Shown piece by piece: positions 5,771 to 16,325 of a stretch of DNA of 43,979 nucleotides. Made by a program: the position numbers and the translations under genes. A model generated the notes under the pieces. The model saw only the letters and a list, made by a program, of their open reading frames with translations. It was not told where the DNA came from and searched no databases. Every line of letters begins with the position of its first letter. The first letter of the stretch is position 1. Source of the DNA: Actinomycetota bacterium (GTDB lineage: Bacteria; Actinomycetota; Acidimicrobiia; Acidimicrobiales; CADCSY01); the NCBI GenBank assembly GCA_019348495.1, contig JAHWJI010000008.1:1-43979 (forward strand). The letters run 5' to 3'.

Positions 5771-7081
5771 TCAGCCCGGCGCCGACAGGCGGGCCGCCAG
5801 GCGCTCCAGCCCCGCCACCCGGCTGCCCTTGACCAACACGGCGTCCCCCTCGCCCAGGGGTCCCAGCGCGGCCAGGGCCTCGTCGGGCCCGCCCACCACC
5901 TCACCGCCGTAGGCCGGCTCGCCCACCGCCACCACCCGGATGCCGAGCTCAGCCGCCAGGGCCGCCACCGCCCGGTGCTCCCGGGCCGACACGTCGCCCA
6001 GCTCGGCCATGGTCCCGAGCACGGCGATCCGGCGACCGGCGTCCAGCTCGGCCAGCGCCCGTAGGGCGCCGGCCACAGACACCGGGTTGGCGTTGTAGGC
6101 GTCGTTGAGGACCAGCGCCCCCGATGGCGAGCGGACCAGGTCCATCCGCCAGGGCGAGAGCGAAGCCCGGGCCAACCCGTCGGCCACCGCGGCCGGAGCG
6201 ACGTCACACGCCAGGGCACCCGCCGCCGCAGCCAGGGCGTTGGACACCTGGTGGCGCCCCCGGACCGAGAGGCGAACCTCTGCGTCGCCCCACGGTGAGC
6301 GCATGGTGAACGACGGTCGGAGCTCGTCGTCGAGGACCACGCCCTCGGCCGTCACCTCCGCTGCCGGCGCCAGGCCGAAGCGCAGCACCGACGCACTGGT
6401 CACCGCGGCCATGGCCGCCACCAGGGGGTCGTCGGCGTTGAGCACGGCGGTGCCACTGGCCGGCAGCGACTCGACCAGCTCGGCCTTGGCCCGGGCCACC
6501 TGCTGGAGCGTGCCGAAGGTCTGGGTGTGGACCAGGCCGACGTGGGTGACCACCCCGACGGTGGGCTGGGCCAGGTCGCACAACAAGCGGAGGTCGCCCG
6601 GCGCCCGGGCACCCATCTCCACCACCACCGCCTCGACGCCGTCGGGGGCGGCGAGGAGGGTGAGGGGGACGCCCAGCTCGTTGTTGAACGAGCCGGTGCT
6701 GGCCGACGTCAGCCAGCGGGCGCCGAGGGCCGCGGCCAGCAGGTCCTTCACCGAGGTCTTGCCCACCGAGCCGGTCACCGCCACCACCCGATCGCCCAGG
6801 CGGGAGCGGGCGTGGCGGCCGAGGGCGGCCAGCGCGGCCAGGGTGTCGTCGACCACCACGGCGGTGCCGTACCGGGGGGGGCGGTGGCTGAGGTAGGCCG
6901 GCGCGCCAGCGGCCAGGGCGTCGGGGATGAAGTCGTGGCCGTCGCGCCCGGCCACGACGGGCACGAACAGCTGGCCGTCACCGAGCCGGCGGGAGTCGAT
7001 GGCCACCCCATCCACCTCGACGTCGGCGCCGATGAGCTGGCCGCCCGTCACCCGGGCCACCTCGGAGGTCCACCACCGCAT
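5771..7081 (-). CDS. murF: UDP-N-acetylmuramoyl-tripeptide--D-alanyl-D-alanine ligase
   Basis: Cytoplasmic ATP-dependent Mur ligase that adds D-Ala-D-Ala to the UDP-MurNAc-tripeptide, the last soluble step of peptidoglycan precursor synthesis. The 436-residue protein shows the N-terminal UDP-binding region (GVAIDSRRLGDGQLFVPV), the P-loop VTGSVGKTSVKDL, the MurF signature SFNNELGVPLTLL, VVEMGARAPGDL, NADDP and LNDAYNANPVSVAGAL. Length and motif order are normal. It is not embedded in a dcw cluster here (no murE or mraY next to it). Its ATG (7081-7079) overlaps the ATG of ddl on the opposite strand, so its promoter must lie inside the ddl coding region. Confidence 0.95.
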   Translation of the reverse strand: MRWWTSEVARVTGGQLIGADVEVDGVAIDSRRLGDGQLFVPVVAGRDGHDFIPDALAAGAPAYLSHRPPRYGTAVVVDDTLAALAALGRHARSRLGDRVVAVTGSVGKTSVKDLLAAALGARWLTSASTGSFNNELGVPLTLLAAPDGVEAVVVEMGARAPGDLRLLCDLAQPTVGVVTHVGLVHTQTFGTLQQVARAKAELVESLPASGTAVLNADDPLVAAMAAVTSASVLRFGLAPAAEVTAEGVVLDDELRPSFTMRSPWGDAEVRLSVRGRHQVSNALAAAAGALACDVAPAAVADGLARASLSPWRMDLVRSPSGALVLNDAYNANPVSVAGALRALAELDAGRRIAVLGTMAELGDVSAREHRAVAALAAELGIRVVAVGEPAYGGEVVGGPDEALAALGPLGEGDAVLVKGSRVAGLERLAARLSAPG

Positions 7082-8207
7082 GGCCCGCTACCGTGCCACA
7101 CCCGTGGTCGACGTCACCTCCTCGCCCGCCCTGCCCGGGCGCGTGCGGCTGGTGGTGCTCTTCGGGGGCCGTTCGGCCGAGCACGAGGTGTCGTGTGTCT
7201 CGGCCGCCTCGGTGCTGGCCGCCCTCGACCGGGACCGCTACGACGTGTGGCCCATCGCCATCACCGGCGACGGTCACTGGGTGCGCGCCGAGGAGGCCCG
7301 GGCCGCGCTGATGGCCGGAGCCGGCGCCCTCCCGCCGGCACTGGCGACGGTGGGACCCCGGGTCGATCCGCTGCCCGAGCTGGTCGCCTCGACCGGTGAC
7401 GGCCCCACCGTGGTCTTTCCCCTGCTCCACGGTCCCCAGGGGGAGGACGGCACCGTCCAGGGGCTCCTGGAGCTGGCCGGGCTGGCCTACGTGGGCGCCG
7501 GCGTGTTGGGATCGGCGCTTTGCATGGACAAGGCCAAGGCCAAGGACGTGCTCTCCGCCGCCGGCCTCCCCCAGGCCCGTCACCTGGCCCGGCGCGGCCA
7601 CGAGGTCGACGACCACCTGCCGGCGCGGGTCGGTGACGAGCTGGGTTGGCCGGTGTTCGTCAAGCCCGCCAACCTGGGCTCGTCGGTGGGGATCTCCCGT
7701 GTGGGCGGCCCCGACGACCTGGGCGCCGCCGTCGAGGTGGCCCTGGCCTACGACGAGTGGGTGGTCATCGAGGAGGCGGTCACCGGCCGGGAGATCGAGT
7801 GCGGGGTGCTGGGCAACGCTGAGCTGGCGGTGTCGGTCCCCGGCGAGATCATCCCCGGCGCCGAGTTCTACGACTACGACGACAAGTACTCGGGCGCCGG
7901 GGCCGAGTTGGTGGTCCCCGCCGTGCTCCCCGACGCCGTGGCCGACGACGTCGGGCGCCTGGCCGTGGCCGCCGCCACCGCACTGCGGGCCGAGGGCATG
8001 GCCCGGGTCGACTTCTTCTACGAAGCACAGGGTCGGGGGTTGCTGGTCAACGAGGTGAACACCATCCCCGGCTTCACGCCCCAGTCGATGTATCCCCGCC
8101 TGTGGGTGGCCTCGGGCGTGCCCTACCCCGAGCTCGTCGACCGCCTCGTGGCCCTGGCCCTGGAGCGTCACGACCGCCGGGCCGGCCGCGTCGGGCGTCC
8201 CCGCTGA
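7080..8207 (+). CDS. ddl: D-alanine--D-alanine ligase
   Basis: ATP-grasp enzyme joining two D-Ala, the substrate for the divergently encoded MurF. The motifs are clear: LFGGRSAEHEVSC at the N-terminus, PLLHGPQGEDGTVQGLLELAGLAYVGAGVLGSALCMDK, FVKPANLGSSVGISRV (ATP binding), EIECGVLGN, FYDYDDKYSG and the C-terminal metal site VNEVNTIPGFTPQSMYP. With ATG 7080 the product is 375 residues. GTG at 7143 would remove 21 N-terminal residues and is also plausible, because the conserved part starts at VRLVVLFGG. It ends 9 bases before the stop of the convergent TetR gene. Confidence 0.95.
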   Translation: MARYRATPVVDVTSSPALPGRVRLVVLFGGRSAEHEVSCVSAASVLAALDRDRYDVWPIAITGDGHWVRAEEARAALMAGAGALPPALATVGPRVDPLPELVASTGDGPTVVFPLLHGPQGEDGTVQGLLELAGLAYVGAGVLGSALCMDKAKAKDVLSAAGLPQARHLARRGHEVDDHLPARVGDELGWPVFVKPANLGSSVGISRVGGPDDLGAAVEVALAYDEWVVIEEAVTGREIECGVLGNAELAVSVPGEIIPGAEFYDYDDKYSGAGAELVVPAVLPDAVADDVGRLAVAAATALRAEGMARVDFFYEAQGRGLLVNEVNTIPGFTPQSMYPRLWVASGVPYPELVDRLVALALERHDRRAGRVGRPR

Positions 8208-8216
8208 GGCGTTCGA

Positions 8217-8816
8217 TCAGGGCTCGGCCACCAGGGCGCAGCGCAGGAAGCCGAGCAGCTCGGTGCGGCGCCGGACCAGGGTCCGGGCGGTGGGATCCAC
8301 CCCCACCGCCCGTAGCACCTCGACCTCGGTGGCCGCGCCGATGACCGTGGAGTAGACCGACAGCAGCAGCAGCCGGGGGTCGTGACGGCGCATGCGTCCG
8401 GCCGCCATCTCCTCCTCCAGGAAGGCCCCGGCCCGCACCACCAGGGGGTCGAGGACCTCCACCAGCCGGGTGGCGGTGGGCGGGCCCAGCCGGCTGACCT
8501 CTCTGAGCAGGCCCAGCAGCTCGGGGCGGCGAGCGGCCAGGCGGAACACCGCCCGCACCAACGCCTCCACCCGGTCGAACCCCGGGCCGGCCCGGGCGAG
8601 GGCCACCTCGAGGGCTTCGCCCAACTCTGCCGCCGAGTGGTCGACCACCGCCATCAAGAGCCCCTCCTTGGTCCCGAAGTGATGCAGGATCGTCTGTTTG
8701 CGCAGGCCCAGGCCACCCGCCAGGCTGTCGAGCGATGTGGCGCCGTAGCCGCGGGCGGAAAAGCTCATCAGGGCGCCGTCGAGGATCCGGGCCCGGGTGG
8801 CGGCTGCGTCCTTCAC
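8217..8816 (-). CDS. TetR family transcriptional regulator
   Basis: A 199-residue TetR-type repressor. The N-terminal helix-turn-helix is well formed (ATRARILDGALMSFSARGYGATSLDSLAGGLGLRKQTILHHFGTKEGLLMAVV), with the usual LHHFGTKEGLL. The remaining ~140 residues are the helical ligand-binding and dimer domain, with no recognisable ligand signature. It diverges from the acyl-CoA reductase operon with only 24 bases between the two starts, and those bases contain a perfect palindrome. The natural inference is that it represses both itself and the operon and responds to an acyl-CoA or related lipid intermediate. The ligand is not shown by sequence. Confidence 0.92.
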   Translation of the reverse strand: MKDAAATRARILDGALMSFSARGYGATSLDSLAGGLGLRKQTILHHFGTKEGLLMAVVDHSAAELGEALEVALARAGPGFDRVEALVRAVFRLAARRPELLGLLREVSRLGPPTATRLVEVLDPLVVRAGAFLEEEMAAGRMRRHDPRLLLLSVYSTVIGAATEVEVLRAVGVDPTARTLVRRRTELLGFLRCALVAEP

Positions 8817-8817
8817 T

Positions 8818-8829
8818 TACCATATGGTA
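8818..8829. promoter_or_regulatory. putative TetR operator palindrome
   Basis: TACCATATGGTA is a perfect 12-bp palindrome. It lies one base upstream of the TetR start codon and 11 bases upstream of the GTG of the acyl-CoA reductase gene. It is AT-richer than anything nearby. Size and placement fit a TetR-dimer half-site pair that would block initiation of both divergent genes. That it is bound by the adjacent regulator is inference. Confidence 0.6.
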
Positions 8830-8840
8830 GACAACTCCCC

Positions 8841-11243
8841 GTGATCGCCGACGCCCTGCACGGACGCCGCCTCCTGGTCACCGGGGCCACCGGGTTCCTG
8901 GGTACCGCCCTGGTCGAGCGTCTCCTGCGCTCGGTGCCCGGATGCGAGCTGGTCCTGTTGGTGCGGGCCGGCCGGCGGTCGACACCGCAACGGCGGGTGC
9001 AGCGCGAGGTGCTGCGCAACGACGCCTTCGACCGCTTGCGCGCCGATCTGGGCGATCGCTTCGACGAGGAGGCGGCCCGGCGGATCACCGTCATCGCCGG
9101 CGACGTGGGCATGGACGGGCTGGGCCTCGACGACGCCGGCCGGGCCGCCCTCGCCTCCTGCGACGTCGCCATCCACGCCGCCGCCGCCGTGGCCTTCGAC
9201 TCCCCCCTCGATCGGGCCGTGGAGGTCAACCTGCTCGGTCCCACCCGGGTGGCCGAGGCGCTGCGCTCGGCGGGATCGACGGCCCACCTGGTCTCGGTCT
9301 CGACCTGTTACGTGGCCGGCAACCGCCGGGGCCGCGCCGGCGAGGTGGCGGTGTTCGACACGCCCTTCGGCCCCAAGCCCAGTTGGCGCGACGAGGTCGC
9401 CGCTGCCCGCCGGGCGCGGGCCGACACCGAGGCCGAGAGCCGCACCCCGCCCCTGCTGGCGCGCTTCGCCAAGGAGGCCCGGGCCGAGCTGGGGGCGGCG
9501 GGCATCCCGCTGCTCGCCAGCAGAGCCGAGCGGTTTCGGGAGACCTGGGTGGCCCACACCATGGTGGAAGCGGGGCGGGCCCGGGCCCGGGCGCTGGGCT
9601 GGCCCGACGCCTACGCCTACACCAAGGCCCTGGGCGAGCAGGCTCTGTGTGAGACCAGGGGCGACCTCCCCGTCACCCTGGTGCGCCCCTCGATCATCGA
9701 GTCGGCCCTGGCCGAGCCCCGTCCGGGGTGGATCCGGGGCTTTCGCATGGCCGAGCCGGTCATCATCACCTACGCCCGGGGCCTGCTCAAGGAGTTCCCG
9801 GGTATCCCCGAGGGCGTGGTCGACGTCATCCCCGTCGACCTCGTCGTGGCCGCGGTGATCGACGCCGCCGCCCGGGGGCCCAAGCCCACGCCGGCGCCGG
9901 CCATCGTCCAGGTGGCGTCGGGTTCGGCCAACCCGCTGCGCTACCGCCACCTGGTCGACATGGTGCACGACTGGTTCAGCCAGCACCCCCTCTACGACGC
10001 CAAGGGCCAGCCCATCGTGGTCCCCCGCTGGTCCTTCCCGGGCCGGGGCCGGGTCCAACACCAGCTCCAGCGGGCGGTCAGGGCCATAGATCTGGCCGAG
10101 AAGGCGCTGGGGGCGCTGCCGCTGCGTGGCAGTCAGGCCCGCTGGGCCGCCGATCTCGAGGAGCGCCGGGCCGAGGCCTCCCGGGCGCTGGACTACGTGG
10201 AGCTCTACGGTGCCTACGCCGAGACCGAGGCCGTCTTCGCCGTCGACGAGCTCCTGGCCCGCTGGTCGACCCTCGACGCCACCGACCAGGCGAGCTTCGG
10301 CTATGACCCCGGGGTCGTCGACTGGGACCACTACGTCACCCAGGTCCACCTGCCCTCGGTGGTGGAGCACGCCCGGGTGCGGGTCACGCCCGGTTCCCGC
10401 ACCGGCCCCAGCCGGTCCCAACGCCTGCGCGACCGGGTACTCGCACCCGAGCGCCACCTGGCCGCCTTCGACCTGGAGAACACCCTCGTCGCCTCCAACG
10501 TGGTCGACTCCTACTCCTGGCTGGCCACCCGCCGGCTGCCGCCCGACGAGCGGCTGCGCTTCGCCCTGCGCACCCTGGCCGAGGCCCCGGCGTTGCTGGC
10601 GCTCGACCGCCAGGACCGGGGCGACTTCCTGCGTCACTTCTACCGCCGGTTCGAGGGGGCCCCGGTAGCCCAGCTGGAAGAGGACGCCACCCAGCTGCTC
10701 AGCCACCTGTTGTTGACCAAGTCGTTCCCGGCCGGCATCCGCCGGGTGCGCCAGCACCGTCGCCTGGGTCACCGCACGGTGCTCATCACCGGCGCCCTCG
10801 ACGTGGTGGTCGAGCGCAACCTGGCCCCACTGTTCGACGACATCGTGTGCGCCCGCATGAGCCCTCAGGCGAGCCGGGGCGACCGGGGGGGGCCCAGGTG
10901 GAACGGGGAGCTGACCGGCGCCCCGCCCACGGGGGAGGCACGGGCCCAGGCCATGGCCGACTACGCCGAGGCCGAGGGCCTGCGCCTGGAGGAGGCCGTG
11001 GCCTACGCCGATTCGGCCAGCGACCTGCCCATGCTCGAGGCGGTGGGCTTCCCGGTGGCGGTCAACCCGGAGATCCGACTGGCCGCCGTCGCCCGCAAGC
11101 GGGGCTGGCTGGTCGAGCAGTGGTCGAAGTCGCCGGGCGGGCCCCGGCCCTTGCTGCCCATCGGCCCGGTCACGCAACGCACGTCCTTCGCCCGTCGCCC
11201 GGCCGCCACGGCCGCCGTGGCCGAGCGGGGGAGGGATCGGTGA
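8841..11243 (+). CDS. fatty acyl-CoA reductase fused to HAD-IB phosphatase-like domain
   Basis: An 800-residue fusion. Residues ~1-370 are an extended SDR of the NAD_binding_4/fatty acyl-CoA reductase type: VTGATGFLGTALVERLL (NADPH binding), SVSTCYVAG, catalytic YAYTK (Tyr and Lys four apart), LVRPSIIESA and VDVIPVDLVVAAVI. A linker-like helical region follows to ~540. Residues ~540-760 are a HAD-IB domain: FDLENT (motif I), LITGALD (motif II), ADSASDLPML (motif IV). Motif I normally reads DxDxT; here the second Asp is Glu546, and the expected motif III Lys is replaced by Arg in TGEAR, so phosphatase activity is doubtful. The SDR part should reduce an acyl-CoA to an alcohol or aldehyde. GTG 8841 directly follows the palindrome; no better start exists. 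First gene of a coupled operon, ending in a GTGA overlap. Confidence 0.85.
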   Translation: MIADALHGRRLLVTGATGFLGTALVERLLRSVPGCELVLLVRAGRRSTPQRRVQREVLRNDAFDRLRADLGDRFDEEAARRITVIAGDVGMDGLGLDDAGRAALASCDVAIHAAAAVAFDSPLDRAVEVNLLGPTRVAEALRSAGSTAHLVSVSTCYVAGNRRGRAGEVAVFDTPFGPKPSWRDEVAAARRARADTEAESRTPPLLARFAKEARAELGAAGIPLLASRAERFRETWVAHTMVEAGRARARALGWPDAYAYTKALGEQALCETRGDLPVTLVRPSIIESALAEPRPGWIRGFRMAEPVIITYARGLLKEFPGIPEGVVDVIPVDLVVAAVIDAAARGPKPTPAPAIVQVASGSANPLRYRHLVDMVHDWFSQHPLYDAKGQPIVVPRWSFPGRGRVQHQLQRAVRAIDLAEKALGALPLRGSQARWAADLEERRAEASRALDYVELYGAYAETEAVFAVDELLARWSTLDATDQASFGYDPGVVDWDHYVTQVHLPSVVEHARVRVTPGSRTGPSRSQRLRDRVLAPERHLAAFDLENTLVASNVVDSYSWLATRRLPPDERLRFALRTLAEAPALLALDRQDRGDFLRHFYRRFEGAPVAQLEEDATQLLSHLLLTKSFPAGIRRVRQHRRLGHRTVLITGALDVVVERNLAPLFDDIVCARMSPQASRGDRGGPRWNGELTGAPPTGEARAQAMADYAEAEGLRLEEAVAYADSASDLPMLEAVGFPVAVNPEIRLAAVARKRGWLVEQWSKSPGGPRPLLPIGPVTQRTSFARRPAATAAVAERGRDR

Positions 11244-12472
11244 AGGCCCTACAGGTCGAGCGATCACTCCCCCGCTTCGCCGTGGCCCGGGCCGCAAGCG
11301 CCGTGGCCCCGGGCCGGGGAGCCAGGGTCGGTCCCCTGCGCCTGGCCGAGATCGACCCGCCGGCACCGCCCGGTCCGGGATGGCAGCGGGTGCGGCCCCG
11401 ACTGGCGGGCATCTGCGGCTCCGACCTGGCCACGGTCGACGGCAAGGCGTCGCCGTGGTTCGAGCCTGTCGTCAGCTTCCCCTTCGTGCCCGGTCACGAG
11501 GTGGTGGGCGAGCTGGACGACGGTCGTCGTGTGGTGCTCGAGCCGGTCCTGGGCTGCGCCACCCGCGCCATCGACCCCCCGTGCCCGGCGTGCGCCCAAG
11601 GCGACCTCAGCCGCTGTCGCAACATCGCCTTCGGATGCCTCGAGCCCGGTCTCCAGACGGGCTACTGCTCCGTCACCGGTGGCGGCTGGTCGCTGGCGCT
11701 CGTCGCCCACGACAGCCAGCTCCACACCGTGCCCGAGGCCATGAGCGACGAGGCTGCGGTCATGGTGGAGCCTGCTGCCTGCGCCCTGCGGGGGGCGCTC
11801 AAGGCCCAGGCCGGACGCGAGGGTGTGGTGGTCGTGATCGGCGCCGGCACCCTCGGGCTGTGCGCGGTGGCCGCCCTGCACCGCTGGGTCGCCCCGGCCC
11901 GCCTCCTGGTGGGGGCCAAGCACCCCCAGCAGCACCGGCTGGCCGGCGAGCTGGGAGCGACCGACGTGGTGGCCCCGTCGTCGCTCCCCAGAGCCGTGCG
12001 CCGGGCCACCGGATCGTCGGCCTTCGGACAGTCCGGTGACGACTCGTCGCCCCCGGCTCGGGCCGGCGGCTCGTCGCCGATGATGCAGCTCACCGGCGGC
12101 GCCGACGCGGTGGTCGATTGCGTGGGCAGCGCCACCAGCCTGGCCCAGGCCCTGGCCATCGTGCGCCCCGGGGGCCGTATCGTGATGGTCGGCATGCCCG
12201 GCCCCCTCGCCGTCGACCTCACCCCCCTGTGGCAGCGGGAGGTCGAGTTGGTGGGGGCCTATGCCTACGGGTTCGAGCCCGGGCCGGGCCGGCGCACCTT
12301 CGACCTGGCCTTCGAGCTGGTGGCCGACGCCGGACTCGATCGCCTGGTCTCGGCCACCTACCCCCTGCACCGCCACGTGGCCGCCCTGGCCCACGCCGCC
12401 GAAGCCGGAGGGCGGGGCGCGGTCAAGATCGCCTTCGACCTCCGCCGAGAAAGGGAACGGGACCGCATATGA
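11240..12472 (+). CDS. zinc-dependent alcohol dehydrogenase family protein (MDR)
   Basis: A 410-residue medium-chain dehydrogenase/reductase. The catalytic zinc region is GICGSDLATVDG with PFVPGHEVVGE. The structural zinc lobe is CPACAQGDLSRC with a further Cys in GCATRAIDPPC. The Rossmann motif is VVVIGAGTLGLCAV. It probably oxidises or reduces an alcohol/aldehyde made by the upstream reductase. An unusual Ser/Gly/Pro-rich insertion of about 30 residues (coding ~12005-12085) interrupts the cofactor domain between AGELGATDVV and GGADAVVDCVG, the position of a surface loop in relatives. Start GTG 11240 overlaps the upstream stop as GTGA; its own TGA overlaps the next ATG. Confidence 0.85.
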   Translation: MKALQVERSLPRFAVARAASAVAPGRGARVGPLRLAEIDPPAPPGPGWQRVRPRLAGICGSDLATVDGKASPWFEPVVSFPFVPGHEVVGELDDGRRVVLEPVLGCATRAIDPPCPACAQGDLSRCRNIAFGCLEPGLQTGYCSVTGGGWSLALVAHDSQLHTVPEAMSDEAAVMVEPAACALRGALKAQAGREGVVVVIGAGTLGLCAVAALHRWVAPARLLVGAKHPQQHRLAGELGATDVVAPSSLPRAVRRATGSSAFGQSGDDSSPPARAGGSSPMMQLTGGADAVVDCVGSATSLAQALAIVRPGGRIVMVGMPGPLAVDLTPLWQREVELVGAYAYGFEPGPGRRTFDLAFELVADAGLDRLVSATYPLHRHVAALAHAAEAGGRGAVKIAFDLRRERERDRI

Positions 12473-12651
12473 ACACAGCATCGGCCGAAGGCCGATTCGA
12501 TCCCTCAGCCACGAGTCGGGTGGCACCCAGGGAGGTCGGACGGGTGGCGCCGAGGGGAGGGGCCCACGGACGCCGGAGGCGTCCGATGGGAGGGGTCCCG
12601 CTCGGTGACAGGACCCGTCCAACCGGGAGCAAGGGTGGCGGGACCCGATGA
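12469..12651 (+). CDS. possible 60-residue basic microprotein
   Basis: An open frame of 60 codons fills the gap between the dehydrogenase and the LarA-like gene. Its ATG (12469) overlaps the dehydrogenase TGA, and its TGA (12649-12651) overlaps the ATG of the next gene, so both junctions show the 4-base coupling used throughout this operon. The product would be Arg/Gly-rich, without a membrane segment, with a short internal repeat (VAPR-EVGR-VAPR). Against it: the codons are unremarkable, there is no recognisable fold, and the DNA holds two strong hairpins that could instead be the functional part. The double overlap may also serve only to keep ribosomes moving to the next gene. Confidence 0.4.
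   Translation: MNTASAEGRFDPSATSRVAPREVGRVAPRGGAHGRRRRPMGGVPLGDRTRPTGSKGGGTR
12480..12590 (+). repeat. two strong hairpins in the operon's only wide intercistronic gap
   Basis: Hairpin 1 is ATCGGCC (12480-12486), loop GAA, GGCCGAT (12490-12496). Hairpin 2 is CGGACGCC (12567-12574), loop GGA, GGCGTCCG (12578-12585), extended by CCCA (12563-12566) with TGGG (12587-12590) around a bulged A. Both are perfect in the core. Between them lies an imperfect direct repeat of CGGGTGGC-CC-AGGG. They would form in the mRNA between the dehydrogenase and LarA-like genes and could slow RNase decay or attenuate transcription. Confidence 0.55.
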
Positions 12652-14234
12652 GCCCAAGGCCGGGATTCGTCCTGGAGGTCGACCGGTCCACGCCGCCGAC
12701 GCTGTTCATGCACGGCAACGGCTACCGCCTGGAGCACCTGCCGGTGGGCAGCCGGATCGTCTACCCGCCCGAGCCCCTGCCCGTGGTGCGCGACATCGAC
12801 GGCGCCATCCGCGACGCCCTGCTCCACCCCGTCGACTCCGACCCGCTGCCGGCGCTGCTGTTCCCCGGCATGCGCCTGACCATCGCCTTCGACGACATCT
12901 CGCTGCCGCTTCCCCCCATGCGCCGGCCCGATGTGCGCCAGCGGGTGATCGAGGCCGTGCTCGACCTGGCCGCCGAGGCCGGTGTCGACGACGTCCACCT
13001 CATCGCCGCTCTGGCCCTGCACCGGCGCATGACCGAGGCCGAGCTGCGCCACGCCGTGGGCGACCGGGTCTACGACGCCTTCGCCCCCCGGGGCCTGCTC
13101 TACAACTTCGACGCCGAGGACCCCGACGCCCTGGCCTCTCTGGGCGAGACCTCCCAGGGCGAGGAGGTGGAGATCTCCAAGCGGGCGGCGGAGTCCGACC
13201 TGCTCGTCTACGTCAACATCAACCTGGTGGCCATGGACGGTGGCCACAAGTCGACAGCCACGGGCCTGGCCTCCTACCGCAGCCTGCGCCACCACCACAA
13301 CGTGCGCACCATGCAGCACAGTCGCTCGTTCATGGACCAGCACCGCTCCGAGCTGCACTCGTCGAACTGGCGCATGGGCGAGGTCATCCGCAACGCCGGC
13401 GTCAAGATCTTCCAGATCGAGACGACGCTCAACAACGACACCTTCCCCAAGCCCTTCGACTTCCTCCAGAAGCGGGAGTGGGAGTGGTCGCTGCGTGACC
13501 GCTCCTCCTACCTGGCGTCGACCAAGGCCCTGGCCCGCACCCCCGACCGCGTCCGGCGCTCGATCTTCCAGTCGGTGCTGGCCCCCCACAACATGACCGG
13601 GGTCAACGCCGGTGACGTCGAAGCGGTGCACGAGCTGACCACGGCCAAGGTGATGGAGCAGCAGTTGGTCCACGTCGAGGGCCAGGCCGACATCCTCACG
13701 CTCGGGCTGCCTCACATCTGCCCCTACAACGTGCACTCGGTCATGAACCCGATCCTGGTCATGTGCACCGGCCTGGGCTACTTCTTCAACCTCTACCGCC
13801 GGCGCCCGCTGGTGCGCGAGGGCGGGGTGCTCATCGTCAGCCACCCCACGCCCTGGGCCTTCCACCCCGTGCACCACCCCAGCTACATCGACTTCTTCGA
13901 GGAGGTGCTGACCGAGACCACCGACCCACTGGAGATAGAGAAGACCTACGAGCAGTCCTTCGCCGAGGACGAGTGGTACCGCCACCTCTACCGCACCAGC
14001 TACGCCTACCACGGGGTCCACCCCTTCTACATGTGGTACTGGGGGGCGCACGCCCTCCAGCACCTGGGCGGGGTGATCATCGTGGGCGGCGACGCCAAGG
14101 CGGTGCGCCGCCTCGGTTTCAAGCCGGCCACCACCATGGGCGACGCCCTGGAGATGGCCAGCGACGTGGTCGGCCGCGATCCCTCCCTCACCCACTTCCA
14201 CTGCCCGCCGCTGATGCTGGCCGAGGTGACGTGA
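12648..14234 (+). CDS. LarA-like (lactate racemase/DUF2088 domain) protein
   Basis: A 528-residue protein whose first ~210 residues resemble LarA, the nickel-pincer (NPN) lactate racemase: IAFDDISLPLPPM (LarA D-x-T-R-P segment), HLIAALALHRRMTEAELRHAVG (LarA AtGxHrp segment with His125), and NLVAMDGGHKSTATGLASY (LarA SGG-K segment with Lys201). By eye, LarA Arg75 is Leu here, and the catalytic His174 position is not His (Ile/Asn). His108 and the cofactor-linking Lys184 appear kept. The C-terminal half is large, aromatic- and His-rich, and unlike lactate racemase. No larB, larC or larE cofactor genes lie in the window. Function unknown; a racemase/epimerase of a hydroxyacyl intermediate is one idea. 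Starts with ATGA, ends with GTGA overlap. Confidence 0.7.
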   Translation: MSPRPGFVLEVDRSTPPTLFMHGNGYRLEHLPVGSRIVYPPEPLPVVRDIDGAIRDALLHPVDSDPLPALLFPGMRLTIAFDDISLPLPPMRRPDVRQRVIEAVLDLAAEAGVDDVHLIAALALHRRMTEAELRHAVGDRVYDAFAPRGLLYNFDAEDPDALASLGETSQGEEVEISKRAAESDLLVYVNINLVAMDGGHKSTATGLASYRSLRHHHNVRTMQHSRSFMDQHRSELHSSNWRMGEVIRNAGVKIFQIETTLNNDTFPKPFDFLQKREWEWSLRDRSSYLASTKALARTPDRVRRSIFQSVLAPHNMTGVNAGDVEAVHELTTAKVMEQQLVHVEGQADILTLGLPHICPYNVHSVMNPILVMCTGLGYFFNLYRRRPLVREGGVLIVSHPTPWAFHPVHHPSYIDFFEEVLTETTDPLEIEKTYEQSFAEDEWYRHLYRTSYAYHGVHPFYMWYWGAHALQHLGGVIIVGGDAKAVRRLGFKPATTMGDALEMASDVVGRDPSLTHFHCPPLMLAEVT

Positions 14235-15196
14235 GCCGGTTGCCGTCGCTGCCGTCGCTGCCCGGAGCGCGGTTCCGGGTGCCCCGGCCCGGGTTCCCCT
14301 GGTCGGCGCCCCTGGTCCCTCGGGGCTACGAACGTCCGCCGGCGGCTCCCCACACCGGTGCCGACTACGACACGGCCTGGGCCCGCCGCCCCCTGGCCCG
14401 CCACGTCCGGCTGCTCGTGCTGGAGGGGCCCATCCGCTTGGGCGTGCGGGCGCTGACGGCGCCCGAGCGCACCGGCCTCGATCGCCTCGACGGCCTGGAG
14501 GGCGCCGCCATCTTCGCCGCCAACCACCACAGTCACCTCGACACCCCCCTGCTGCTCACGTCCCTGCCCGAGCCCTGGCGCCACCGCGTGCTGGTGGCGG
14601 CCGCGGCCGACTACTTCTTCACCAACCGGCTCACGTCGGCTGCCTCGGCCCTCGCCATCGGGGCCATCCCCATCGAGCGCACCCGCATCGAGCGACGCTC
14701 AGCCGACCGTGCTGCGGGCCTCATCGACGACGGCTGGAGCCTGCTCATCTTCCCCGAGGGTGGCCGCAGCGCCGACGGCTGGGGCCGGGGCCACCGGGGT
14801 GGGGCCGCCTACCTGGCCCTGCGCACGGCGGTGCCGGTGGTGCCCATCCACGTGGAGGGCACCGGCGCCATCTTCGGCAAAGGCGACAAACGGCCCACGC
14901 CCGGCACCAGCCGGGTCACCTTCGGCGCCCCCCTGCACCCCCGGGACGGCGAGAGCGCCACCCGCTTCGCCGGGCGCATCGAGACCGCCGTCGCCGCGTT
15001 GGCCGACGAGGCCACCACCGACTGGTGGTCGGCCCGCCAGCGGGCGGCCAGGGGTACCTCCCCCTCGCTCAGCGGCCCCGAGGGCTCCTCCTGGCGGCGG
15101 ACCTGGGCCTTGGGCGAGCGCCGCCGGCCCCGCCGCTCGGGCTCCAGCCGATCCCGCTCCTCGGGCGCCCACTCCCCCGCCTGGCCCCGTATCTGA
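14231..15196 (+). CDS. PlsC-like 1-acylglycerol-3-phosphate acyltransferase family protein
   Basis: A 321-residue glycerolipid acyltransferase (PlsC domain). The catalytic HX4D motif is NHHSHLDTPLL, the phosphate-binding motif is FPEGGRSADG, and a downstream VPVVPIHVEGTGAIFGKG block matches the family. An N-terminal ~80-residue Pro-rich region and a basic Arg/Ser-rich C-terminal tail (after residue ~280) flank the core. It should acylate a lysophosphatidate-like or fatty-alcohol-derived acceptor at the membrane. GTG 14231 overlaps the LarA-like stop (GTGA). It is the last gene of the operon. Pairing of PlsC with HAD-IB domains is known in actinobacteria as single fusions; here the HAD is fused to the reductase instead. 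Confidence 0.88.
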   Translation: MSRLPSLPSLPGARFRVPRPGFPWSAPLVPRGYERPPAAPHTGADYDTAWARRPLARHVRLLVLEGPIRLGVRALTAPERTGLDRLDGLEGAAIFAANHHSHLDTPLLLTSLPEPWRHRVLVAAAADYFFTNRLTSAASALAIGAIPIERTRIERRSADRAAGLIDDGWSLLIFPEGGRSADGWGRGHRGGAAYLALRTAVPVVPIHVEGTGAIFGKGDKRPTPGTSRVTFGAPLHPRDGESATRFAGRIETAVAALADEATTDWWSARQRAARGTSPSLSGPEGSSWRRTWALGERRRPRRSGSSRSRSSGAHSPAWPRI

Positions 15197-15228: not shown

Positions 15229-16260
15229 TCACCGTTCTGGCAGTGAAAGCGTTGCAGTCAACACCACGTTTCCACTGCCAGAACGTGGCAAGAGCATGGG
15301 CTCGAAGGATGAGTCAGCCGTTTTCCGACGTTCGGCATCGGCGATGGCAGACCGGACCTCGGTTACGACCTTCTCGGGATGCTCCCACACCTGCTCGTCG
15401 GTGAAGCGCAGCACCTCGAATCCGGCGGCCCGAAGAGCCGCATCCCTCCGGGCATCGCTCTCACGGTCGAGCTTGGAACTGTGGTGAAGCTCGCTGTCGA
15501 CCTCAGCAACGATGTGCCAGCGGCGAAAGAGATGGTCGACCCGCCCGATCCAGGACTCCGCGCCCAGGTCGACCTGACACGACGGCGTCTCGATCCCGGC
15601 CTGCGCCAACACGGCGAGGAACCGGGCCTCGAGACCGCTCTCAGGAGGGATGTACCCCGCGCCACGAGCCATGAGGAGTTGGCGCATGAGGCCACTTCCG
15701 GTCCTCCCGTGCTCGAGCAACTCGATGGTGACTCCCCGGATGGTCTCCAGCGTGACCAACCTACGGGTCAGCGCGTTGTCGAGCGCCCGCTCGGTGCGTC
15801 CCGGTTGGAGGCACCCGGCCAGATCGAAGACCGTGCGGGCGACGGTGGTGACCGGGATGCCTTCGGCCCCGGTGCAGTGGTGTGGAGGAAGGAGCCGAGG
15901 CCGGTGAAGGACCGCCTGAAGTCCTCCTTGCCGGCGCATCGCTCGGCTGCGGTGTCTGCTCATCTCCACGTCGGGTGACGCAAAGCCGGGGAGGCCCCAC
16001 AAGCGAGCTGCTGCCCTCCCGGAGATGACGGTTCCCTCGCCGTAGTGGAGCACGGCCACCATGCACCGCTGGCGGAACGTCCGCCTCGAGCCAGCCATCC
16101 GCAGCACCTGCGATGTCGCCTCCTCCCACTCCCCACTGCGCACTCGCCGGTCCACCGCCCATCGATCACCGCCGAGGTGGCGAACCTGCGACCGTGAGAC
16201 GACGCTGTGCTGTTGCTCGGCCAACCGGCGCGCGGCCTGATCGAGCCCGACGTTTCTCAT
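15229..16260 (-). CDS. AbiEi-type winged-helix / DUF559 (Vsr-like) endonuclease domain protein
   Basis: A 343-residue protein. The N-terminal ~90 residues (HSVVSRSQVRHLGGDRWAVDRRVRSGEW) resemble the AbiEi antitoxin winged helix. The C-terminal ~110 residues match DUF559/Vsr-like nucleases: GRVDHLFRRWHIVAEVDSELHH with D, ExD and H in order, then RDAALRAAGFEVLRFT. No AbiEii toxin partner is adjacent. Start ATG 16260; TTG 16290 is possible. The last ~18 codons coincide with an imperfect palindrome and a homologous palindrome lies upstream of the gene. In the corresponding reading frames the two copies both encode SGSG...SLPER, so one is a diverged copy of the other. Role unknown; defence, autoregulation or mobility are all possible. 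Confidence 0.75.
   Translation of the reverse strand: MRNVGLDQAARRLAEQQHSVVSRSQVRHLGGDRWAVDRRVRSGEWEEATSQVLRMAGSRRTFRQRCMVAVLHYGEGTVISGRAAARLWGLPGFASPDVEMSRHRSRAMRRQGGLQAVLHRPRLLPPHHCTGAEGIPVTTVARTVFDLAGCLQPGRTERALDNALTRRLVTLETIRGVTIELLEHGRTGSGLMRQLLMARGAGYIPPESGLEARFLAVLAQAGIETPSCQVDLGAESWIGRVDHLFRRWHIVAEVDSELHHSSKLDRESDARRDAALRAAGFEVLRFTDEQVWEHPEKVVTEVRSAIADAERRKTADSSFEPMLLPRSGSGNVVLTATLSLPER
15233..15285. repeat. palindrome A at the 3' end of the DUF559 gene
   Basis: Outer arms CGTTCTGGCAGTG (15233-15245) and CACTGCCAGAACG (15273-15285) are perfectly complementary over 13 bp, enclosing 27 bases. It starts two bases after the stop codon of the minus-strand DUF559 gene, so it forms the end of its coding sequence. 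It is related to palindrome B by an inverted duplication. Confidence 0.85.
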
Positions 16261-16325
16261 GCCATGAAAGGTAACCAGGGTATGCGACAACAGCCGCGAG
16301 CACCTGGGCTACACCCATCGTTCAC

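Follow-up and report, generated by a model that had tools for sequence, protein, structure and literature searches.

A TetR-linked operon joining a fatty acyl-CoA reductase to a LarA homologue in Actinomycetota: a candidate system for O-alkyl glycerophospholipids

The described systems closest to the locus examined here are routes to ether lipids. The anaerobic glycerol ester reductase/plasmalogen synthase (Ger/PlsA) makes bacterial sn-1 ether lipids, and the AGPS pathway (animals, MXAN_1676) combines a fatty acyl-CoA reductase (FAR) product and an AGPAT-type acyltransferase with an ether-forming FAD enzyme. In Myxococcus xanthus, the elb operon (ElbA-E) serves the aerobic formation of alkyl-ether lipids and has FAR-like, HAD-like and AGPAT-like parts (PMC9131029). 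The subject of this study is an operon on contig JAHWJI010000008.1 of an uncultured Actinomycetota bacterium of the order Acidimicrobiales (assembly GCA_019348495.1; 2.2 Mb in 161 contigs, 98% complete); this whole contig of 43,979 nucleotides is referred to below as the window. The operon and a divergent TetR gene span positions 8217-15196 and encode, besides the regulator, a FAR-HAD fusion, a zinc dehydrogenase, a LarA homologue and a PlsC-type acyltransferase. We propose, with a probability of roughly 55%, that aerobic Actinomycetota use this operon, under the control of TetR, to make O-alkyl glycerophospholipids of the mixed ether/ester kind.

Common to elb and the present operon is the joint encoding of a FAR, a HAD domain and an AGPAT-like acyltransferase, and the elb operon also has no AGPS domain (PMC9131029). 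The two systems differ in that ElbD additionally contains acyl-CoA synthetase and acyl carrier protein domains, whereas no ligase or carrier domain was found with Pfam in the four operon proteins (FAR-HAD consists of reductase/SDR and HAD domains only). Furthermore, ElbA and ElbE are NAD-dependent epimerase-like proteins, and no LarA-type nickel enzyme has been described in elb (where ElbC is a protein of unknown function). A preliminary description of the locus had stated that no system with this combination was known; this is only partly right, as the gene content parallels that of elb and a Rubrobacter operon for 1-O-alkyl-glycerol phosphate has reportedly been suggested.

The other two routes differ from the present operon in their ether-forming enzymes. 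Neither the source genome nor a second genome analyzed (G001) encodes a FAD-oxidase_C protein, and therefore AGPS is absent from both; likewise, no BcrAD_BadFG protein was found in either, and therefore both are without PlsA/Ger. Rubrobacter genome G199 encodes two FAD-oxidase_C proteins, of the GlcD and YdiJ types (NCBIfam), and those of genomes G187 and G334 are similar to them, as judged by eye only. Our best guess is that the operon yields ether-type membrane lipids along a route in which neither of the known ether-forming enzymes, AGPS and Ger/PlsA, takes part.

The operon lies on the plus strand. Its first gene encodes the FAR-HAD fusion (800 aa; 8841-11243; Pfam matches NAD_binding_4, 9.8e-57, and HAD, 7.5e-25) and is followed by genes for (i) a zinc dehydrogenase of the medium-chain class and the polyol/threonine dehydrogenase type (410 aa; 11240-12472; ADH_N, and ADH_zinc_N, 5.6e-18), (ii) the LarA homologue, a member of the LarAH14/15/16 family (528 aa; 12648-14234; Lar_N, PF09861, 8.3e-37), and (iii) the PlsC-type glycerolipid acyltransferase (321 aa; 14231-15196; Acyltransferase, PF01553, 2.9e-17). 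The TetR-family regulator is encoded divergently (8217-8816, minus strand; TetR_N, 5.5e-12). All junctions, as read from the DNA, are 4-base overlaps (GTGA at 11240-11243, ATGA at 12469-12472, ATGA at 12648-12651 and GTGA at 14231-14234), which, together with the Pfam assignments, bears out the coupled operon recognized in the preliminary description. That description also counted a tiny open reading frame (ORF) of 60 aa (12469-12651, plus strand) among the products made together with the four large proteins. The Arg/Gly-rich product of this ORF, which bridges one overlap junction between the dehydrogenase and the LarA homologue, has no Pfam or NCBIfam family match. Similarity to it was detected only in the nearest relative, L034, and in other relatives the gap between the two genes is mostly shorter and of different sequence. 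It is therefore most likely a spacer, and we rejected it as a gene. A minus-strand ORF (15229-16290) is located downstream of the PlsC gene, and divergent genes for MurF and a D-Ala-D-Ala ligase (Ddl) adjoin the TetR gene on its other side (5771-8207).

The conservation of this gene set was analyzed in 80 Acidimicrobiia loci, with synteny counts restricted to testable loci. The FAR-HAD gene is located upstream of the LarA gene in 66/66 loci and the PlsC gene directly downstream of it in 71 of 72. The dehydrogenase varies most among the members, its gene separating HAD from LarA in 56 of 66 loci, and the minimal form consists of FAR-HAD, LarA and PlsC (e.g. locus L073). A divergent TetR gene was found in 45 of 62 loci. 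The LarA homologue itself is present in 135 of 148 genomes, mostly of the same order as the source.

The same gene order was also found outside the order, in 11 of the families sampled, with the TetR gene at the opposite end in some cases. In all, the set recurs in roughly a dozen other families of actinobacteria. Since the order is conserved in nearly all Acidimicrobiia loci as well as in distant families, the grouping of these genes is not due to chance. Co-occurrence was examined in 396 Actinomycetota genomes, in which the LarA family was counted when above its cut-off: 86 genomes carry LarA, 95 carry FAR-HAD and 84 carry both (89 if fragments at contig ends are included; Fisher p ~1e-71, kinship ignored). 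In five families (f7, f19, f22, f67 and f76), some members carry both genes and others neither, suggesting that the two are gained or lost together. The preliminary description had proposed a search for such co-occurrence and had considered that the claim of a new system would fail if the two genes were not neighbors in relatives; they proved to be neighbors in Acidimicrobiia and in the further families. Spread on plasmids was rejected, as no close relative of LarA was found in the plasmid collection.

A different arrangement was observed in the Rubrobacteraceae, the identity of which (family f77 of our set) was established by an exact sequence match between a contig of G334 and a Rubrobacter tropicus plasmid. 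No PlsC like that of the window was seen beside LarA in the Rubrobacteraceae loci. Instead, in nine of the loci looked at, a PlsY gene (TIGR00023, 185 bits, cut-off 137) immediately precedes FAR-HAD and abuts or overlaps it, and in most of these the dehydrogenase and LarA genes come after FAR-HAD. The same core is thus joined by two unrelated glycerophospholipid acyltransferases, by PlsC on its downstream side in most taxa and by PlsY on its upstream side in Rubrobacteraceae, and this alternation supports a glycerolipid role beyond what the domain names suggest. The core lipids of Rubrobacterales are reported to be approximately 46% ether-linked in PMC10821996 (citing Sinninghe Damste 2023), where the stereochemistry of Rubrobacter lipids is given as not determined. 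In several Rubrobacteraceae, two additional genes are inserted between the dehydrogenase and LarA genes (L187, 6804-7394 and 5516-6352): one product, of approximately 196 aa, has no NCBIfam match, and the other resembles 6-hydroxyaminopurine reductase, below the family cut-off.

The FAR-HAD fusion comprises a FAR domain (residues about 1-510) and a HAD-IB phosphatase-like domain (residues 541-733; 10461-11039 in the window), and its best PDB match is a fatty acyl-CoA reductase (7eoz, 5e-62). The FAR domain matches its family and carries the NADPH-binding glycine motif GATGFLG at position 15 as well as Y258-xxx-K262. In the HAD domain, DSxxD is present at position 724, and in nearly all Acidimicrobiia motif I has the sequence FDLENT, in which Glu takes the place of the second catalytic Asp (FDVDGT in Rubrobacter). 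A structure model of the fusion was of moderate confidence (pTM 0.57) and was left out of the reasoning. The dehydrogenase retains the expected zinc ligands (C59, H86/E87 and E177) and GAGTLG, and PlsC contains NHHSHLD at position 98 and FPEGGRS at 174.

The LarA homologue is a full-length match to NF052592 (LarAH14/15/16; 896 bits, cut-off 740), a family named hydroxyacid isomerase in NCBIfam. Residue correspondences were derived from profile alignment, and invariance was assessed among 24 Acidimicrobiia sequences. The residues serving the nickel-pincer nucleotide (NPN) cofactor are kept and invariant (ribose Asp72 = D83, thioamide Lys184 = K201 and Ni ligand His200 = H217), as is the first catalytic histidine (His108 = H125). 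In contrast, the second catalytic histidine (His174) is an invariant Asn, N192, and Arg75, which contacts the substrate carboxylate and the cofactor phosphate, is an invariant Leu86. NPN binding is therefore retained, but neither the carboxylate anchor nor the usual two-sided acid/base pair is present, and a racemase of the lactate or malate type was rejected on these grounds.

The model of the LarA homologue (mean pLDDT 76) is nearest in fold to 9q3k (E 2.5e-31). The single-His LarA proteins of Blautia wexlerae (9q3j) and Streptococcus plurextorum (9q2u/9q3k), its nearest relatives in fold and sequence, also have Asn at the second catalytic position and keep the Ni ligand and the NPN lysine (PMC12611868). 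They differ in having about 20% identity to it, a sugar-metabolism gene context and Lys, rather than Leu86, at the Arg75 position. Within the NF052592 family, which has no known activity, a group-14 homologue from Frankia was inactive in all seven racemase/epimerase assays, and it was suggested that homologues devoid of the second catalytic His might catalyze another hydride reaction (Desguin 2020, PMC7583248). A second LarA subfamily (approximately 42% identity, below the NF052592 cut-off) was identified at three loci (L166, L167 and L169) in three genomes (G162, G214 and G387), with no FAR-HAD operon beside it.

In the source genome, LarB and LarC are encoded adjacently and LarE elsewhere, all above cut-off, and no Lar_N protein other than the LarA homologue was found. 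Moreover, LarC was detected in 19 of 21 LarA-bearing genomes of the class sample, compared to 0 of 17 LarA-free ones. The presence of LarB, LarC and LarE, the single Lar_N protein and the tracking of LarA by LarC indicate that synthesis of the nickel-pincer cofactor serves the predicted LarA enzyme.

The proposal of an O-alkyl glycerophospholipid is based on the FAR motifs, on the missing AGPS and PlsA/Ger, and on the elb-like theme of FAR, HAD and AGPAT, together with the gene order, the co-occurrence, the PlsY of the Rubrobacteraceae, the ether lipids of Rubrobacterales and the signs of NPN use described above; we infer both the lipid product and the chemistry of the LarA homologue. In the proposed pathway, FAR would reduce acyl-CoA to a fatty alcohol (or to the aldehyde), a phosphate would be removed at some step by the HAD domain, redox chemistry on the glycerol backbone that links the alkyl chain would fall to the dehydrogenase together with LarA and its nickel-pincer cofactor, and PlsC (PlsY in Rubrobacteraceae) would attach the ester chain. 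LarA would then transfer hydride on one side only of a substrate that is not a carboxylate, and would not be a 2-hydroxy acid racemase. In a more specific and much less likely version, compatible with the residues, the LarA homologue would be a nickel-pincer alkyl-ether synthase taking the place of AGPS: hydride would be removed from C2 of acyl-glycerophosphate to give a ketone, which would allow a fatty alcohol to replace the C1 acyl group, after which the same face would receive the hydride back. Such a reaction would fit the observed residues, since one catalytic His suffices and the carboxylate-binding Arg is not needed. The lipid role put forward in the preliminary description is partly supported, in that the PlsC/PlsY alternation and the ether-rich Rubrobacterales speak for a glycerolipid.

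Several observations weigh against the O-alkyl glycerophospholipid proposal. The dehydrogenase is absent from the locus in 10 of the 66 Acidimicrobiia loci, and the Glu found at the second motif-I Asp in nearly all members of this class suggests that the HAD phosphatase reaction may be altered. Two genomes of the sample (G029 and G044) carry the LarA homologue and FAR-HAD but have no LarC match, which reflects either gaps or another cofactor supply. FAR-HAD is not the sole strong FAR of every carrier, as a second strong FAR-type domain is present in some Rubrobacter genomes (G199 and G334), and Rubrobacter connects the operon with ether lipids by taxon only. Other acylated lipids, too, would be compatible with PlsC or PlsY beside a FAR. 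No lipid analyses of operon-bearing Acidimicrobiia and no link between DUF2088/LarA and lipids were found in the literature, and we know of no NPN enzyme that acts on a lipid.

Among the alternatives, an unlikely one is that the operon makes another lipid derived from a fatty alcohol (a wax ester, an alkyl phosphate, an alkyl-linked head group, or a 1,2-diol from a 2-hydroxyacyl chain), in which LarA would epimerize a 2-hydroxy fatty acid or a head-group precursor. FARs commonly supply wax esters, and LarA enzymes use 2-hydroxy acids, as the NCBIfam family name implies; against this, the operon shows no gene for a wax ester synthase, PlsY and PlsC point to glycerophosphate, and the Leu86 and Asn192 replacements, as well as the negative Frankia assays (PMC7583248), argue against hydroxy acid epimerization. 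Less probable again is the inversion by LarA of C2 of glycerol phosphate or a lyso-lipid, which would provide the adjacent PlsY or PlsC with backbones of opposite stereochemistry. Inversion at a secondary carbinol is indeed LarA chemistry, both bacterial acyltransferases are reported to accept the two glycerol-phosphate stereoforms (PMC13400652), and the stereochemistry given as not determined for Rubrobacter lipids (PMC10821996) would be compatible with it. However, inversion normally takes both catalytic histidines, one of which is an invariant Asn here, and the acyl-CoA reductase would be left unexplained. Lactate racemase provides D-lactate to the cell wall in Lactiplantibacillus. A comparable supply of D-lactate or another D-hydroxy acid via the neighboring Ddl, suggested by the adjoining MurF (5771-7081) and Ddl genes and by Ddl near 38 of the 80 Acidimicrobiia loci, is very improbable and was rejected as positional, given that in 38 other regions, almost all of them from beyond the class, neither gene lies beside the operon although FAR-HAD and PlsC/PlsY remain, that the second catalytic His is missing and that the LarAH14 protein of Frankia does not act as a lactate racemase (PMC7583248).

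With respect to the control of the proposed O-alkyl glycerophospholipid operon, a perfect 12-bp palindrome (8818-8829) was identified between the TetR gene and the operon, within the operator-like site TTACCATATGGTAG (8817-8830). It occurs as a single copy in the window and in none of 100 shuffles. The core TACCN4GGTA is present in 34 of 36 TetR-FAR intergenic regions of relatives, and in five of the 16 genomes scanned (G001, G013, G017, G054 and G143) the exact family consensus, TCTACCANNTGGTAGA, is found only at the operon. Sites with one mismatch were not more frequent than in a reversed control, and a wider TetR regulon was therefore rejected. The conserved palindrome and the restriction of exact sites to the operon in these five genomes suggest that TetR is most likely a local regulator of the operon.

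Ether formation in aerobic bacteria is an open question, as the myxobacterial steps are uncharacterized and neither AGPS nor Ger occurs here. The strictly conserved gene set, which includes a nickel-pincer enzyme and is carried both by culturable Rubrobacter and by the widespread Acidimicrobiia, makes this question directly testable. A putative 1-O-alkyl-glycerol phosphate operon, which would share the bacterial family and the presumed product, has reportedly been noted in Rubrobacter in 2023 work by Sinninghe Damste. If that operon is the one described here, the lipid assignment would have precedence there, and the new elements would be the spread of the operon, the lack of AGPS and Ger, and the nickel enzyme with its particular residues. 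The LarAH14/15/16 family gains a gene context, and the operon could become a marker of one group of ether lipids from the environment. If the ether synthase version were true, this LarA homologue would be the first NPN enzyme to act beyond hydroxy acid isomerization.

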